Below are positions 4,147 to 64,000 of a stretch of 64,000 nt of DNA, piece after piece (position 1 is the stretch's first letter; every line of letters starts with the position of its first letter). Source of the stretch: Nitrospirota bacterium (GTDB lineage: Bacteria > Nitrospirota > Thermodesulfovibrionia > UBA6902); assembly GCA_016234115.1 (NCBI GenBank), contig JACRHD010000019.1, positions 124,001 through 188,000 of the forward strand, in the 5' to 3' direction. A program made the translations under genes and the position numbers. Under the pieces are notes generated by a model. It was not told the DNA's origin. It ran no database searches and saw only the letters and a program-made list of their open reading frames with translations.

Positions 4147-4222
4147 AAAAATCCCCCTTCCTCCCCCTTTTTCATAGGGGGAATTTGAGTCCCTCTCTTC
4201 GGCAAAGAGGGGCAAGGGGAGT
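4147..4222. repeat. dispersed hairpin repeat, family 2 (copy a)
   Basis: G/C-run hairpins: a half with CCCCCTTTTTCATAGGGGG and a half with CCCTCTCTTCGGCAAAGAGGG lie side by side between cheY and the STAS gene. The same two halves, separated by an AT-rich spacer, occur at 21660-21778 and, inverted, at 33464-33588; a single half occurs at 16058-16093. It probably forms strong RNA hairpins within the chemotaxis transcript. Confidence 0.8.
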
Positions 4223-6893: not shown

Positions 6894-7031
6894 CGTCATT
6901 CCCGTGCCTAAAGCACCTACTGTTGGCAGTCTTTAAGCAGGAATCCATGGTTCAACAGGCTCACCATGACAAGCTTGTCACCCTGAGCTTGTAGAAGGGT
7001 GGATTCCCGATTACTACCTCGGGAATGACAA
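6894..7031. repeat. dispersed composite hairpin repeat, family 1 (copy 1)
   Basis: Three-part element: a left hairpin (GTCATTCCCG ... GGAATCC), a core that translates to MVRQAHHDKLVTLSLSKG-like peptides, and a right hairpin (CCCGATT ... CGGGAATGAC). A 22-nt segment at 6905-6926 ending CCTACTGTTGG interrupts the left hairpin compared with copies at 34680 and 38068. Lies between the kinase stop and the regulator start, so it is transcribed in this two-gene unit. Confidence 0.9.
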
Positions 7032-10401: not shown

Positions 10402-10541
10402 CGTCACTCCCGTGCATAATGCACCTACTGTTGGCAGTCAGTAAGCGGGAATCCATGGTTCGACAGGCTCACCATGACAAGCTTGTCACCCTGAGCTTGT
10501 CGAAGGGTGGATGCCCGATTAATAACTTCGGGCATGACGTT
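10402..10541. repeat. dispersed composite hairpin repeat, family 1 (copy 2)
   Basis: Full-length copy with left hairpin, core and right hairpin in the same arrangement as 6894-7031. The 22-nt segment at 10413-10434 interrupts it; the bases after it (CAGTCAGTAAGCGGGAATCC) are identical to the insert-free copy at 34680. The remainder of the 386-bp gap (10254-10401 and 10542-10639) holds the cysK promoter, the promoter of the next gene and nothing else recognised. Confidence 0.9.
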
Positions 10542-17303: not shown

Positions 17304-17403
17304 AGAGTTCTGGAGTTAAAAGAGTTTATAGAGTTTATAGAGTTTTGGAGTTTCAACTAAACTCTTTAAACACCCCAAACTCTTTTAACTCTTTAAACTC
17401 TTC
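17304..17403. repeat. inverted word array 3 (9-nt word AGAGTTTAA)
   Basis: Left arm 17304-17352 has nonamers such as AGAGTTTAT (twice) and AGAGTTTTG; right arm 17356-17403 is the reverse complement with AGAGTTTAA, AGAGTTAAA, AGAGTTTGG. The right arm reaches into the coaD gene, whose last codons and TAA stop (17393-17395) are array sequence. Confidence 0.88.
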
Positions 17404-21659: not shown

Positions 21660-21778
21660 GTGGATATTCCCCCTTTGGAAAAGGGGGACGAAGGGGGATT
21701 TTGAAAAAATACATTCATAAAAAAATCTCCCCTGACCCTGCTTAAGGCGCCTACTGTTGGTCTTTGTCAAAGAGGGGA
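21660..21778. repeat. dispersed hairpin repeat, family 2 (copy c) with 22-nt insert
   Basis: First half ATTCCCCCTTTGGAAAAGGGGG, a GGGGGATTTT arm, an AT-rich spacer, then the second half AAATCTCCCCTGACCC and TCTTTGTCAAAGAGGGG. A 22-nt segment (21739-21760, ending CCTACTGTTGG) splits the second hairpin; removing it restores a continuous stem. Lies upstream of argG, in a 305-bp gap also holding the site at 21809-21855. Confidence 0.88.
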
Positions 21779-24353: not shown

Positions 24354-24513
24354 ACGTCATTCCCGTGCCTAAAGCACCTACTGTTGGCAGTCTGTTGAGC
24401 GGGAATCCACCCTTCGACCCTTCGACAAGCTCAGGGCCTCAGGGTGACACGGCTTGTCATGGTGAGCTTGTCGAACCATGGATGCCCGATTAAGGACTTC
24501 GGGCATGACAGTA
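24354..24513. repeat. dispersed composite hairpin repeat, family 1 (copy 5, core inverted)
   Basis: Outer hairpins run in the same direction as in copies 1 and 2, but the core is in the opposite orientation: ACCCTTCGAC ... GGTGAGCTTGTCGAACCATGG. It carries the 22-nt insert at 24366-24387. The remaining part of the 303-bp dprA-topA gap (24514-24629) presumably holds the topA promoter, which I cannot fix. Confidence 0.88.
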
Positions 24514-33463: not shown

Positions 33464-33588
33464 CCCCCTCTTTGAAAAAGACCAACAGTAGGTGCCTTAA
33501 GCAGGGGTAAGGGGAGATTCTTTAAAATGAGGTTATTTCAAAAAATCCCCGCTTCATCCCCCTTTGCCAAAGGGGGAATATGGCTTTA
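33464..33588. repeat. dispersed hairpin repeat, family 2 (copy d, inverted) with 22-nt insert
   Basis: Mirror-image arrangement of copy c: CCCCCTCTTTGAAAAAGA, then the 22-nt insert in reverse orientation (33482-33503), then GGGGTAAGGGGAGATT, an AT-rich spacer and a CCCCCTTTGCCAAAGGGGG hairpin. The other parts of the 509-bp gap 33186-33694 show no gene. Confidence 0.88.
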
Positions 33589-34679: not shown

Positions 34680-34790
34680 CTGTCATTCCCGCAGTCAGTA
34701 AGCGGGAATCCACCCTTCGACGGGTCCACGGATGCCCGATTAAGCCTGCCCTCGAAGGCCTTAGTCGGGGGGACCTCGGGCATGACAGTT
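34680..34790. repeat. dispersed composite hairpin repeat, family 1 (copy 6, no insert)
   Basis: Left hairpin CATTCCCGCAGTCAGTAAGC without the 22-nt insert, a shortened core (CCACCCTTCGAC ... GGTCCACGG) and an enlarged right hairpin ending GGGCATGACAG. Lies in the 564-bp gap 34415-34978; positions 34453-34679 of that gap show an open frame of unnatural composition and no recognisable element. Confidence 0.85.
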
Positions 34791-37030: not shown

Positions 37031-37191
37031 TCAGAGTCAGGAGTTATGAGTTAAGAGTTATGAAACAAACACTCTTGACTCCCAACTCTTGCTTAACTCT
37101 TGACTCTTAACTCTTAACTCTTAACTCTTAACTCTTAACTCTTAACTCTTAACTCTTAACTCTTAACTCTTAACTCTTAACTCTTAACTCT
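37031..37191. repeat. inverted word array with 12 perfect heptamers (word ACTCTTA) upstream of accD
   Basis: Left arm 37031-37064 (GAGTCAG, GAGTTAT, GAGTTAA, GAGTTAT); right arm 37070-37191, in which ACTCTTA is repeated 12 times without error (37103-37186). The array ends 3 nt before the accD ATG. The perfect copies imply recent expansion or slippage. Confidence 0.95.
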
Positions 37192-38067: not shown

Positions 38068-38184
38068 TGTCATTCCGGCAGTTCTTAAGCCGGAATCCAT
38101 GGTTCGACAGGCTCACCATGACAAGCTTGTCACCCTGAGCTTGTCGAAGGGCTGGATTCCCGCTCAAAAGACTGCGGGAATGAC
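38068..38184. repeat. dispersed composite hairpin repeat, family 1 (copy 7, no insert)
   Basis: Complete element without the 22-nt insert: CATTCCGGCAGTTCTTAAGC left hairpin, core reading MVRQAHHDKLVTLSLSKG, and a CCCGCTCAAAAGACTGCGGG right hairpin. It fills the accD-folC gap. Confidence 0.9.
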
Positions 38185-42432: not shown

Positions 42433-42515
42433 AGTAACAAGTAACAAGTAACAAGTGACAAGTGACGGTAAGTTTTAGCCAGTTACTATTACCTGTCACT
42501 CGTTACTTGTTACTT
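42433..42515. repeat. inverted word array 7 (7-nt word AGTAACA)
   Basis: Left arm has five heptamers (AGTAACA three times, AGTGACA, AGTGACG; 42433-42467); the right arm 42479-42515 carries reverse complements (AGTAACA, AGTAACG, AGTGACA, GGTAATA). Lies between the divergent mazG and PK-C genes and uses the same word as array 4. Confidence 0.9.
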
Positions 42516-48247: not shown

Positions 48248-48871
48248 ATGTGCAACATACCCGGAGTAGGCAACCAGTGGGGTACTCACTATCCTATTCA
48301 GAATCGCCTTAATTATATGACCACAAACCTGATCAAAGACAAAGACGCTAATCAGGACAATGTTTTAAACGCGGAGGAGTTAGGGATAGACGCGGAGGCC
48401 TTCGCAAGGATCGACCGGAATGAAGACGGTCAGGCAGGCAGAACGGAGTTGGCTATTGATCACCCGTTGAGTCGCATCAATCACATGACCGCCGCGCTGA
48501 TCAAAGACAAAGACACTAACCAGGACAATGTTCTGAACGCGGAGGAGTTAGGGATAAACGCGGAGACCTTCGCAAGGATCGACCGGAATGAAGACGGTCA
48601 GGCAGGAATAAAAGAGTTGATTATTGCTCACCCGTTGAGTCGCATCAATCACATGAGCGCTACCCTGATCAAAGACAAAGACACTAATCAGGACAGTGTT
48701 CTGAACGCGGAGGAGTTAGGGATAGACGCGGAGACCTTCGCCAGGATAGACCGGAACGAAGACGGTCAGGCAGACAGAAGAGAGATAAACATTCATAAAT
48801 TCAAAATACTGTCGAATTATCAGTCACTGACATCAGAACAATCGGATCCGGATGTCAGTGTATCAGTTTAA
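48248..48871 (+). CDS. EF-hand calcium-binding repeat protein (six loops)
   Basis: A 207-residue acidic protein without signal peptide or membrane segment. Three 56-residue repeats (from residue 20) each contain two EF-type loops: DKDxNQDxVLNAEE and DRNEDGQAxxxE, so up to six Ca2+ could bind. The repeats are almost identical in DNA sequence. The tail (LSNYQSLTSEQSDPDVSVSV) is Ser/Asp-rich. Strong AAGGAG ribosome site; sigma-54 promoter and terminator make it a single-gene unit. A calcium sensor or a matrix protein exported without a classical signal is possible. Confidence 0.9.
   Translation: MCNIPGVGNQWGTHYPIQNRLNYMTTNLIKDKDANQDNVLNAEELGIDAEAFARIDRNEDGQAGRTELAIDHPLSRINHMTAALIKDKDTNQDNVLNAEELGINAETFARIDRNEDGQAGIKELIIAHPLSRINHMSATLIKDKDTNQDSVLNAEELGIDAETFARIDRNEDGQADRREINIHKFKILSNYQSLTSEQSDPDVSVSV
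48305..48808 (+). repeat. three tandem 168-bp coding repeats (EF-hand units)
   Basis: Units 48305-48472, 48473-48640 and 48641-48808, in frame, differing at few positions. Indicates recent duplication or gene conversion. Confidence 0.92.
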
Positions 48872-49000: not shown

Positions 49001-49672
49001 TTATTCAGCGGCTGTTCTGATCGGACGGTGTGGTTTGCGTGAGCGATGATCTTTCAGGTCCCCACGCCTGTCACGCCTGTCCTCTCGTCTGTCGCGAATT
49101 TTTTCCCTGTTGTCTGAAATGTTTTCGCGCCGGTCGCTGGTGTCTTCCTGTCTGTCGCGGACATCTTCACGGCGGTCCTTAACATCCTCACGACTGTCTA
49201 CGCGATCTTCACGTTTATCTCTGGCGATATTCTGTTCTGATCTGTCTATTTGGCCCTGCAGCCTTGCCTGATCTTCGGGGTTCGAAGTGTTCTCCAATTG
49301 TTCTTTTAAGCTGCCTAACCGCTCAGCCTTTATTGCATTGTCTCTTTTGTCACGAACATCTTCCCGCCTGTCCCCGATGTCTTCCCCGCGGTCTCGTCTG
49401 TTTTCTTTTCTGTCGCGAAAGTTCTCAGCCTTGTCTACGGCATCCTCACGACTGTCAAGCCTGTCCTCTCTCTTATCGCGAACGTCTTCCCGCCTGTCTC
49501 TTGCGACCCCTGATTTGTCTCCGGACTGGGGACCCAAATGCTCCGAATCGCCTGAAACAATTGTCCCATCAGCAGTCGTCACGCTGTCCGCCCCGTCAGT
49601 CCCCGACAAGACGGGCATTGCGCAAATTAAAAAAAACCCCAACGCCATCATTAGTATTGAGAACCTATTCAT
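49001..49672 (-). CDS. exported RED-repeat (charged heptad) protein
   Basis: A 223-residue protein with a signal peptide (about 1-23, ..AMPVLSGTDG) and a long highly charged region of seven-residue repeats of the type RDxREDx: RDRREDV, RDKREDR, LDSREDA, RDRKENR, GDRREDV. The Arg/Asp/Glu alternation predicts a rigid single alpha-helix or coiled coil. A short break (about 115-145, LKEQLENTSNPEDQARLQ) separates two repeat blocks. No known enzyme motif. Strong AGGAGG site. It is not recognised by name; a periplasmic scaffold or stress/metal-binding role would be speculation. Confidence 0.82.
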   Translation of the reverse strand: MNRFSILMMALGFFLICAMPVLSGTDGADSVTTADGTIVSGDSEHLGPQSGDKSGVARDRREDVRDKREDRLDSREDAVDKAENFRDRKENRRDRGEDIGDRREDVRDKRDNAIKAERLGSLKEQLENTSNPEDQARLQGQIDRSEQNIARDKREDRVDSREDVKDRREDVRDRQEDTSDRRENISDNREKIRDRREDRRDRRGDLKDHRSRKPHRPIRTAAE

Positions 49673-61669: not shown

Positions 61670-63352
61670 TCACTCCACTCCTGCTCCCCTCATGGGAATG
61701 ACAACCACCCCTTCATCGGGATCATTGGAATAAACTTTCAGCAATGCATCCTGTCTGCCGGCGGACAACGGTTTAAATGTCACGGTGATCTCGCAGAAAC
61801 TGTCCGGGGTGACCGTCGAGCAGGTATTCGACTGTGAAAAATCGCTCTCATACCTCTCGGCTATCGCTATGGAGCGTATAATCAGGCCGGACAGTCCGCT
61901 GTTCCCGATAAATACGGTTTCGGAGGATGAAGTATTGTTCCTTACAGGTCCTAATTTCACGAATGAAGGCTTGACGGTAATGTCCGGGTCGAGTGCATCT
62001 GAACACAAGGTCACCGGAGGCATCCCGATCAGCGCTTCGGGAATGCTTTCAGCTTGAGGAACAGCATCAGTCATTATACCTGCAATCCCGGTATTCCTTA
62101 TCATCGCACTCGACGTGCCCGCTATCATGTGAGGAGTATATTTGTTCGGGCACGCGCCGATATTCCCGTTTCCGTCAACTTTAAGTACCCATGAATCATT
62201 ACTCATTACACCGAAGGAGGCTGTTTCGGCAGCCACCACATATCCGCCGTCGGGAATCTGGATTACAGAGTTTGATTTATCATCGCCCGAATCACCGTAC
62301 GCGCTCTGCCATACGATATTCCCGCTCGCATCAAGCTTCAGTGTCAGCACATCATAGTCGCCTGCGCCGAAGGAATTGCTCCACCCGGCAACAATATACC
62401 CGCCGTCAGACGTCTGCTGGATATGTCTGGCCTGATCGGTCCCGGTATGACCATACGTTTTTTCCCATTCAATAGTTCCTGCGGAGTTGAGCTTGAACAC
62501 CCAGAAATCGAAATCGCCCCTCCCGAAAGAAGCGGTCCAGCCCGCCACTACATACCCGCCGTCGGAAGTCTGGAGCACGTATTTGGAATAGTCGTTCCTG
62601 TATCCGCCAAAGGTTTTCTGCCATTGCACATTTCCGGACGCATCGAGCTTCAGTATCCAGGCATCAAAATCACCATTTCCGAAAGACGAGGTCCAGCCGG
62701 TTACTATGTACCCGCCGTCGCTGGTACTCTGGACAGTGCGGGCCTGATCATCGCCTTCACGCCCGTATGCCTTCTGCCATTGCACCTGTCCCGCTGCATC
62801 GAGCTTCAGCATCCAGGCATCGGACATTCCGGTCTCGAAAGACGAGGTCCAGCCGGCCACGATGTACCCGCCGTCAGAAACCTGCTGTATGTAACGGGCA
62901 TAGTCGGCATCTGCCCCCCCGTAAGTATATTCCCATTGAGTAGACCCATCCGGTCCCAGCTTCACAACCAGGGCGTCCATCAGCCCCTTGCCGAAGGAAT
63001 CAGTTACACCCGCAATAATGTATCCGTCGTCCGAAGCAAGCGCGAGCGTACGGGCGGAGTCAACGCCGCCGCCACCGTAGGTTTTCTGCCATTGAACATC
63101 ACCAGCACCATCAAGCTTCACTACCCACAGGTCTGCATCACCCTCGGAAAAAGAGGTCGTATAGCCTGCTGCAATATACCCGCCATCCGGCGTCCGTACA
63201 ATGGAGCGAATGAAATCATCGCCGCTGCTTCCATACGTCTTCGACCAAAAGGCGGCGGCATACGTTGTAACTGGAAGGAAAAGCGTGAAAAACAAAATCG
63301 GGATAAAGAGAAGCAACAAGCCAATCATAATAGATGTAAAACATTGCCGCAT
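61670..63352 (-). CDS. exported beta-propeller-like repeat protein with C-terminal Ig-like domain
   Basis: A 560-residue secreted protein from ATG 63352 (AAGGAGGTC upstream). Signal peptide about 1-33 (...VTTYAAAF). Then seven or eight repeats of about 49 residues with the pattern DGGYIVAGWTSSFG, DxWxLKLDxxGxVQWQKTYGG, each likely one blade. The last roughly 110 residues (KPSFVKLGPVRNNTSSSETV, NSGLSGLIIRSI, ITVTFKPLSAGRQDALLKVY) match the choice-of-anchor/ASH-type Ig-like domain. Surface or extracellular scaffold; no enzyme motif. Confidence 0.85.
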   Translation of the reverse strand: MRQCFTSIMIGLLLLFIPILFFTLFLPVTTYAAAFWSKTYGSSGDDFIRSIVRTPDGGYIAAGYTTSFSEGDADLWVVKLDGAGDVQWQKTYGGGGVDSARTLALASDDGYIIAGVTDSFGKGLMDALVVKLGPDGSTQWEYTYGGADADYARYIQQVSDGGYIVAGWTSSFETGMSDAWMLKLDAAGQVQWQKAYGREGDDQARTVQSTSDGGYIVTGWTSSFGNGDFDAWILKLDASGNVQWQKTFGGYRNDYSKYVLQTSDGGYVVAGWTASFGRGDFDFWVFKLNSAGTIEWEKTYGHTGTDQARHIQQTSDGGYIVAGWSNSFGAGDYDVLTLKLDASGNIVWQSAYGDSGDDKSNSVIQIPDGGYVVAAETASFGVMSNDSWVLKVDGNGNIGACPNKYTPHMIAGTSSAMIRNTGIAGIMTDAVPQAESIPEALIGMPPVTLCSDALDPDITVKPSFVKLGPVRNNTSSSETVFIGNSGLSGLIIRSIAIAERYESDFSQSNTCSTVTPDSFCEITVTFKPLSAGRQDALLKVYSNDPDEGVVVIPMRGAGVE

Positions 63353-63381
63353 AAAAGACCTCCTTTCCCGTACAAAATAGT

Positions 63382-64000
63382 TCATTGCTGTACCTTGAGC
63401 TTGATGAGCACGCCGTTGAATTCACCTGTCCCAGCGGTATGCATCACCCCGAGGACAACATAACCGCCGTCGGCTGTCTGCGAGGCGGAACCGCTCGTAT
63501 CATAGGAGTTAGCGCGTCCGATCGTCCGGTCCCACAGCTTGTTGCCGTTCGCGTCGGTCTTGATAATCCACATGTCGTCCAGTCCTGTCCCGAAAGAATA
63601 CGTATAACCGGCGATAATATACCCCCCGTCGCCGGTAATTTGGACAGACCGCCCTCGGTCGTCCTTAGCTCCGCCGAAGGTTTTGCTCCAAATCTCGTTG
63701 CCGTCCCTGTCCGCCTTGAACAACCAGAGGTCGTAGTCTCCCTCTCCTACAGAATCAGTATAGCCTGTAATGATATATCCACCGTCGGCCGTCTGCTGCA
63801 CGGCACAGCCGCGGTCATCGCCCAATCCGCCGAACGTCCTTGTCCATTCCGCAATACCATCCGCATCTGTCTTTATAAGCCATGCGTCATATTTCGAAAG
63901 GGAAGAGGCATATGAGATCGTCTCCCCTATAATAATGTACCCGCCATCGGCCGTCTGCCACGCCTGTCGCCCGTAATCTATCATCTCGCCGCCGAATGTC
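63382..64000 (-). CDS. beta-propeller-like repeat protein (N-terminus cut by window edge)
   Basis: At least 206 codons of the same 49-residue repeat as the next gene (DGGYIIIGETISYASSLSKY, DAWLIKTDADGIAEWTRTFGG, TADGGYIITGYTDSVGEGDY), ending KVQQ at a stop at 63382. The frame is open to the window edge, reading TFGGE before the Met at 63984, so that Met is internal and the gene continues outside. Lacks the Ig-like tail of its downstream neighbour. Likely a tandem-duplicate surface protein. Confidence 0.85.
   Translation of the reverse strand, partial: TFGGEMIDYGRQAWQTADGGYIIIGETISYASSLSKYDAWLIKTDADGIAEWTRTFGGLGDDRGCAVQQTADGGYIITGYTDSVGEGDYDLWLFKADRDGNEIWSKTFGGAKDDRGRSVQITGDGGYIIAGYTYSFGTGLDDMWIIKTDANGNKLWDRTIGRANSYDTSGSASQTADGGYVVLGVMHTAGTGEFNGVLIKLKVQQ

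Follow-up and report, generated by a model that had tools for sequence, protein, structure and literature searches.

The window, that is the whole 64-kb stretch of DNA that was analysed, contains five copies of a 22-nt element, every one of them located inside a hairpin repeat. Three copies stand within hairpins of a first repeat family (family 1): variant A (TGCCTAAAGCACCTACTGTTGG) is present twice in identical form on the forward strand, at 6905-6926 and at 24366-24387, and the copy at 10413-10434 (+, TGCATAATGCACCTACTGTTGG) has 2 substitutions, with a compensated pair at positions 4/8. Variant B occupies hairpins of a second family (family 2), at 21739-21760 on the forward strand (TGCTTAAGGCGCCTACTGTTGG) and at 33482-33503 on the reverse strand (TGCTTAAGGCACCTACTGTTGG). 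The coordinates and strands of the five blocks, as given in the initial annotation, were confirmed, and each block is exactly 22 nt long; the three substitutions ascribed there to the family 2 copies were recovered at 21739-21760 (+), but the copy at 33482-33503 (-) has only 2. No further copy with up to 6 substitutions was detected in the 64-kb window, and the window gave no match to Rfam.

The sequence of family 1 is GTCATTCCCG^CAGTCNNTAAGCGGGAATCCA and that of family 2 is CTCCCCTNACCCC^TCTTTTCCAAAGAGGGG, where ^ marks the insertion point. Family 1 is a REP dimer of the CGTC type, and in the window the insert is found in just one of its two hairpins: the filled hairpins at 6895..6946, 10403..10454 and 24356..24408 (all +) each have an empty inverted partner approximately 55-75 nt beyond (7001-7029, 10509-10538 and 24480-24509, respectively). 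A hairpin of the same type at 34682..34711 (+, GTCATTCCCG^CAGTCAGTAAGCGGGAATCC) is empty, as are both hairpins (38069-38098, +, and 38154-38184, -) of the dimer at 38069..38184. Family 2 is represented by filled hairpins at 21727..21777 (+, CTCCCCTGACCC^TCTTTGTCAAAGAGGGG) and 33465..33516 (-, CTCCCCTTACCCC^TCTTTTTCAAAGAGGGG) and by an empty one at 4192..4212 (-, CCCCTCTTTGCCGAAGAGAGG). It had been claimed that the two families are unrelated and that removal of the 22 nt rebuilds the hairpin, and the comparison of empty and filled copies bears this out. The family 1 loop measures 13/14 nt when empty and 35/36 nt when filled, an exact difference of 22 nt, and the arm-to-arm distance in family 2 is 9-10 in empty against 32 in filled copies. 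Both families coexist in empty and filled form, differing by exactly 22 nt, in 0.87 Mb of the window genome; the empty copies were counted in this sequence surrounding the filled ones, and their numbers are biased towards these surroundings. The stem of the filled family 1 hairpin remains largely intact because the insertion lies one base pair from the loop. Target duplication, which had been reported as not visible, is indeed absent: unambiguous sites such as GCGT^TGC hold 22 extra nt and no doubled flanking base. CGTC-tagged REPs are characterized by the CGTC tag, an AT-initial 8-bp stem, a CCA tail and head-to-head dimers (Di Nocera 2013, PMC3733652); the tag, an AT-initial stem of 8-9 bp, the CCA tail and the head-to-head arrangement are all present in family 1, but its loop is 9-10 nt long, plus 22 nt when filled, instead of 4-5 nt.

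Other repetitive features of the window include a tandem array of the heptamer CTTAACT at 37092-37191 (about 14 copies, 97% match), further heptamer arrays at 42433-42463 and nonamers at 17304-17402. An ORF of 207 amino acids at 48248-48871 consists of roughly three repeats of 56 aa (168 nt), in which D and N are frequent, and its predicted product resembles an EF-hand-like calcium-binding repeat protein. A 223-aa ORF at 49001-49672 (-) contains a highly repetitive charged stretch (REDVRDKRED...) with a periodicity of 21 nt, and two ORFs at 61670-63984 (-) are built of repeats of about 52 aa (TFGG...DGGYIVAGWT...), 156 nt per unit.

The window genome is a MAG, most likely of a Nitrospirota bacterium, of 3.5 Mb in 69 contigs, 97% complete. 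When it was searched as a whole with a degenerate 22-mer, allowing up to 3 mismatches, 64 copies were obtained against 3 for the reversed control, and the 11-mer CCTACTGTTGG alone occurs 56 times in the 3.5 Mb against 2 for its reversed control. The abundance of the element in this genome is far above chance, and the copies are distributed over both strands and many contigs. Besides the approximately 64 copies of the window genome (G000), 51 were counted in the genome G061 and 27 in G075. Two arrangements in the window genome differ from those of the window: a family 2 hairpin (L015:8665-8718) carries two elements in opposite orientation, one in each arm and at different sites (CCCC^ and CCCCTCT^), and at L022:9968 the element has a third host context, GCCACAGA^CTGTGGC, which is a different short hairpin.

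The consensus of the element is NGCNTAANGCN'CCTACTGTTGG, laid out as a hairpin of 3-4 bp, NGC-NTAAN-GCN', followed by the constant tail CCTACTGTTGG. Positions 1 and 11, which were left free in the search pattern, co-vary, the pair being CG, TA or GC in 30 of the 31 context clusters among the matches listed; the 4:8 pairs include compensated ones of the G-U-like kind. Minor forms end in CTTTTGG, and folding of one strand of the element gives a 3-bp hairpin only. The reverse strand reads CCAACA-GTAG-G-hairpin, where the GTAG is internal (CCAACAGTAGG).

An exact pattern scan over one genome per species returned at least 112 stretches with the element. The matches listed come from Methylobacter and its relatives, other Gammaproteobacteria, Nitrospirota, a Nitrospinae MAG and a Chloroflexi MAG (Ardenticatenales), and clustering of their flanks resolved 31-42 different contexts; records named Nitrospirae and Thermodesulfovibrionia contain both repeats, again filled by this insert. 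The spread across taxa is not a binning artefact, because isolates are among the carriers, namely Methylobacter marinus A45, M. tundripaludum SV96, Methylotuvimicrobium buryatense 5G and Exilibacterium tricleocarpae R142. A match in a Halobacteria MAG (L075) was discarded: its flanking repeat is the same as in Methylobacter, and probably the bin is contaminated. In four Gammaproteobacteria MAG loci (L067, L105, L113 and L122) the element lies within large mosaic intergenic repeats, host repeats that are uncharacterised, at two positions 66 or about 132 nt apart. GGC...GCC variants were seen in separate repeats (L058:3393, L173:236 and L242:236; e.g. CTTC^CTTCAG), the one at L058 near a reverse transcriptase gene resembling a group II intron ORF.

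Direct comparison of occupied and unoccupied sites was possible in several genomes. In M. marinus A45 a filled gene copy (L304) and its empty paralog (L324) are 94% identical, and near the site their sole length difference is one 22-nt gap, GAAGCCGGTGT^CGATCTG, the remaining differences being point changes. The filled gene encodes a tyrosine recombinase and adjoins an IS91-family transposase; its orthologs L317 and L318, from two further Methylobacter genomes, lack the insert as well. In the genome G072 the insert occupies the very base of the recombinase gene that it occupies in A45, with alleles that are 79% identical (21% different), so either this site was hit twice or the element was lost exactly. 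These loci, together with L319, represent a Methylobacter two-gene mobile unit, the tyrosine recombinase followed by the IS91-family transposase; the reading frame of the recombinase shifts at an A(7-8) run.

Among the matches listed, 6 of 234 distinct sites interrupt transposase or recombinase genes with both halves in register: the original frame is taken up again past the element, and the frame read through the insert soon stops. The six genes comprise IS630-type, IS91-type, one IS5-type and two rve-type transposases and one tyrosine recombinase, and the insertions occur in both orientations. When the halves were scanned separately, the DDE_3 profile of the IS630-type gene continued across the element (26-86 | 89-142), as did the zinc domain of the IS91-type gene (3-54 | 57-87). 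The repeats GGGCGACTT^CAGTCGCC of A45 offer a further pair, where one hairpin is filled and its partner at the same locus has the exact empty sequence. At L107 a copy of the element has entered the loop of a second copy (CCAACAGTAGGCGCTT^TAGGCG), a clear case of self-nesting; L082 was first read in the same way, but an 18-nt tandem duplication explains it equally well. Two near-identical viral contigs, for which no phage homologs were found, contain one and two tandem 22-mers, respectively, in a terminator-like hairpin (L263:1034 and L265:2266), an outcome which slippage would produce as well. The suggestion of the initial annotation that the insert is an unrecognised nested mobile unit has gained support from the empty/filled pairs, the interrupted genes, the contexts in different phyla and the self-nested copy, and as judged from these sequence comparisons the element is almost certainly mobile.

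The insertion sites follow a simple rule. With the flanking bases recorded, pyrimidines were found to flank the junction on either side in 35 of 42 clusters among the matches listed, compared to 28% locally (p=1e-13), and T precedes the junction (position -1) in 24 of 31 clusters of the matches listed. The usual junction is T^T or T^C, while family 2 has C^T. The initial annotation had also proposed a process directed at hairpins, and this was only partly upheld: perfect stems of 6 bp or more cross the junction in 33% of the context clusters versus 12.7% of neighbouring positions (p=5e-4), yet stems are unnecessary, as in five of the six interrupted genes no stem at the junction exceeds 5 bp and only the A45 recombinase has one of 6 bp. 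Where a junction stem exists, the insertion lies in several cases at the border of loop and arm. A first hairpin test, based on 106 non-independent contexts (30% against 6%), was superseded by the cluster tests with local controls, which gave the smaller effect reported here. Hairpins are favoured at insertion and not required, the more general rule being pyrimidine^pyrimidine; part of the hairpin excess may come from hairpin repeats being abundant, tolerated sites.

Considering all the evidence, the best explanation is probably an SDR-like, non-coding 22-nt mobile element that may be moved in trans by a Y1/HUH transposase. The HUH route itself is put forward tentatively, as a plausible candidate, and it is proposed because of the REP-like reverse strand, the co-occurrence of Y1_Tnp and RAYT genes and the lack of a reverse transcriptase in several carriers. 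The element inserts whole and exactly, mostly between two pyrimidines and often in or near REP-like hairpin loops, but also in transposase genes and in a copy of itself. According to this model it might move as a single-stranded piece or circle, and the candidate mover would be a Y1/HUH transposase of the IS200/IS605-TnpA or RAYT type. Such an enzyme could read the reverse strand CCAACA-GTAG-G-hairpin in the way a RAYT reads GTAG and hairpin in a REP, and it might join the element into hairpin loops or other single-stranded DNA. After entry into a REP-type repeat the element would have multiplied along with its host. In its widest form the model, which is possible but more speculative, pictures a self-moving single-stranded piece that crosses phyla, is served in trans by resident Y1/HUH enzymes and has REPs and transposons as vehicles.

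In known REPs a GTAG before a small hairpin is recognised by the RAYT (PMC8266576, PMC3733652), and in the REP of Marinomonas the stem measures 5 bp, the loop is TTTA and GTAG lies two bases from the stem (PMC8266576). A Y1_Tnp gene was found in 26 of 28 carrier genomes among the matches listed, the Y1 transposases of A45 being of the IS200 type (145 aa) and of 184-aa types, and in G061 (51 copies) a RAYT gene (NF047646, E=1e-25) lies between two inverted REPs, both of which carry the element. Nevertheless, RAYT had to be given up as the obvious partner: Y1_Tnp counts do not follow the copy number of the element, G016 and G028 have copies and no Y1_Tnp, the 22-mer is absent within 1.5 kb of the RAYT genes of the window genome, and the IS200 ends in A45 bear no resemblance to the element. 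Furthermore, TnpAREP cleaves at C|T (PMC8266576) whereas the junctions of the element are mostly T^T or T^C, and the stem of 3-4 bp is shorter than those of known REPs. Insertion into the lagging strand would predict a strand bias, and none relative to the local GC skew was detected in the window genome (28/60). Two IS200/IS605 tnpA neighbours were considered as parent elements and rejected, the pair in G078 being one duplicated repeat and the copy in G070 an old, decaying orthologous insertion.

Alternatively, a few founder insertions per host family may have been followed by passive spread, through amplification or gene conversion of filled repeats, and we regard this as rather unlikely to be the whole account. 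Variant A (CTAAAG) occurs in the window genome solely within family 1 and variant B (TTAAGG) solely within family 2, each at a constant base of the repeat, and this confinement suggests, from the sequences at hand, few entries per family and then spread along with these repeats or from one of them to another. At orthologous spacers the genus mates lack the entire repeat unit, a result which is uninformative on the 22 nt alone and indicates that the REPs themselves come and go; the element-carrying REPs which flank a RAYT gene fit the same idea. On the other hand, filled and empty copies form no clades (nearest neighbour in the same state in 32/61 versus 30.3 by chance, p=0.40, and in 12/23 versus 11.2, p=0.46), a test that is weak on such short repeats, and in both families identical loop variants are common to the two states. 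Entries into unrelated hairpins and genes are left unexplained by passive spread, which is better regarded as a probable second stage than as a competing account.

A 22-nt small RNA that is reverse-spliced or reverse-transcribed into the DNA is an unlikely intermediate. Elhai et al. reportedly proposed in 2008 an RNA route for the cyanobacterial SDRs, and the compensated hairpin pairs, including the G-U-like ones at 4:8, are in line with it, as are the precise insertion at structured sites and the absent target duplication. However, RVT_1 was not found in 7 of 22 carriers, including genomes with many copies (G000 with 64, G061 with 51 and G075 with 27) besides G032, G034, G028 and G044, and the insertion into genes in either orientation also argues against an RNA. 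Even less probable is that repair or replication slips at hairpins, by template switching from elsewhere and with no dedicated enzyme: the enrichment of hairpins at the junctions and the one- and two-copy viral contigs agree with it, but the constant 22 nt with constant ends in several phyla, the strong preference for two pyrimidines and the stemless sites do not, and slippage may be the cause of the tandem duplications only. The view that the 22-mer is an ancestral part of larger repeats and the insert-free copies are deletions has hardly any probability left, as ragged loss does occur (one orthologous copy with point changes and a 2-nt loss) but nothing else in its favour was found, and the exact 22-nt empty sites in unrelated contexts and the gene frames that are intact only without the element contradict it.

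The 22-nt element resembles the SDRs more than any other system considered. SDR1-8 of Nostoc and its relatives, described by Elhai et al. in 2008, are said to be 21-27 nt long, exactly inserted and provided with a small compensated hairpin, to be mobile, and to be embedded in other repeats and in their own copies; reportedly they were confined to one cyanobacterial group. We know of no enzyme for their mobility. As far as descriptions can be compared, the 22-nt element shares with them the size and the dispersal in many copies, the precise insertion with matching empty sites, the small hairpin with compensatory changes, and the nesting in other repeats and in itself (clear at L107, ambiguous at L082). 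It differs in its distribution, the SDRs being cyanobacterial and the element occurring in records of Nitrospirota, Gammaproteobacteria, Nitrospinae and Chloroflexi, and in its sites, which are REP hairpins, transposase genes and a T^Y junction. SDR5 is placed within palindromic HIP1 sites (PMC4390886), and the SDRs of Elhai et al. 2008 are cited in both PMC4390886 and PMC3116915.

With the GTAG REPs and their RAYT the element has in common the GTAG with an imperfect hairpin on the reverse strand, a size in the 20-40 nt range and a partly overlapping phyletic distribution (Proteobacteria, Chloroflexi), and GTAG REPs inside small palindromes have been reported, namely GTAG-23 of T. roseum and GTAG-15 of A. 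variabilis (Di Nocera 2013, PMC3733652). However, the GTAG of these REPs is terminal and their stem has at least 5 bp, while in the element GTAG is internal, preceded by CCAACA, and the stem is 3-4 bp; moreover, unlike GTAG REPs, the element inserts inside other REPs, its junction is not C|T and no RAYT clearly cognate to it was found. MITEs and miniatures derived from IS200-IS605 are likewise non-coding and presumably moved in trans, but these are 70-300 nt long, and for the 22-nt element neither terminal inverted repeats nor target duplication nor a parent were found.

In the literature searched there was no description or sequence of the 22-nt element. It is a very small mobile repeat, SDR-like in so far as descriptions can tell, present in three or more phyla, its empty sites are unusually clear, and it ranks with the smallest mobile DNA units described so far. 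A unit smaller than REP hairpins and transposons has invaded both of them, and some of the transposase genes that databases list as broken contain such a 22-nt insertion. Since the SDRs were described, the way in which sequences of about 20 nt move has remained an open question, for which the element provides a test case: exact empty and filled pairs, a co-varying consensus, a target rule, isolates and candidate enzymes make the mechanism directly testable. If a Y1/HUH transposase, with REPs and transposons as vehicles, does move the element, it would be the smallest mobile unit for which an enzyme and a target rule can be defined.
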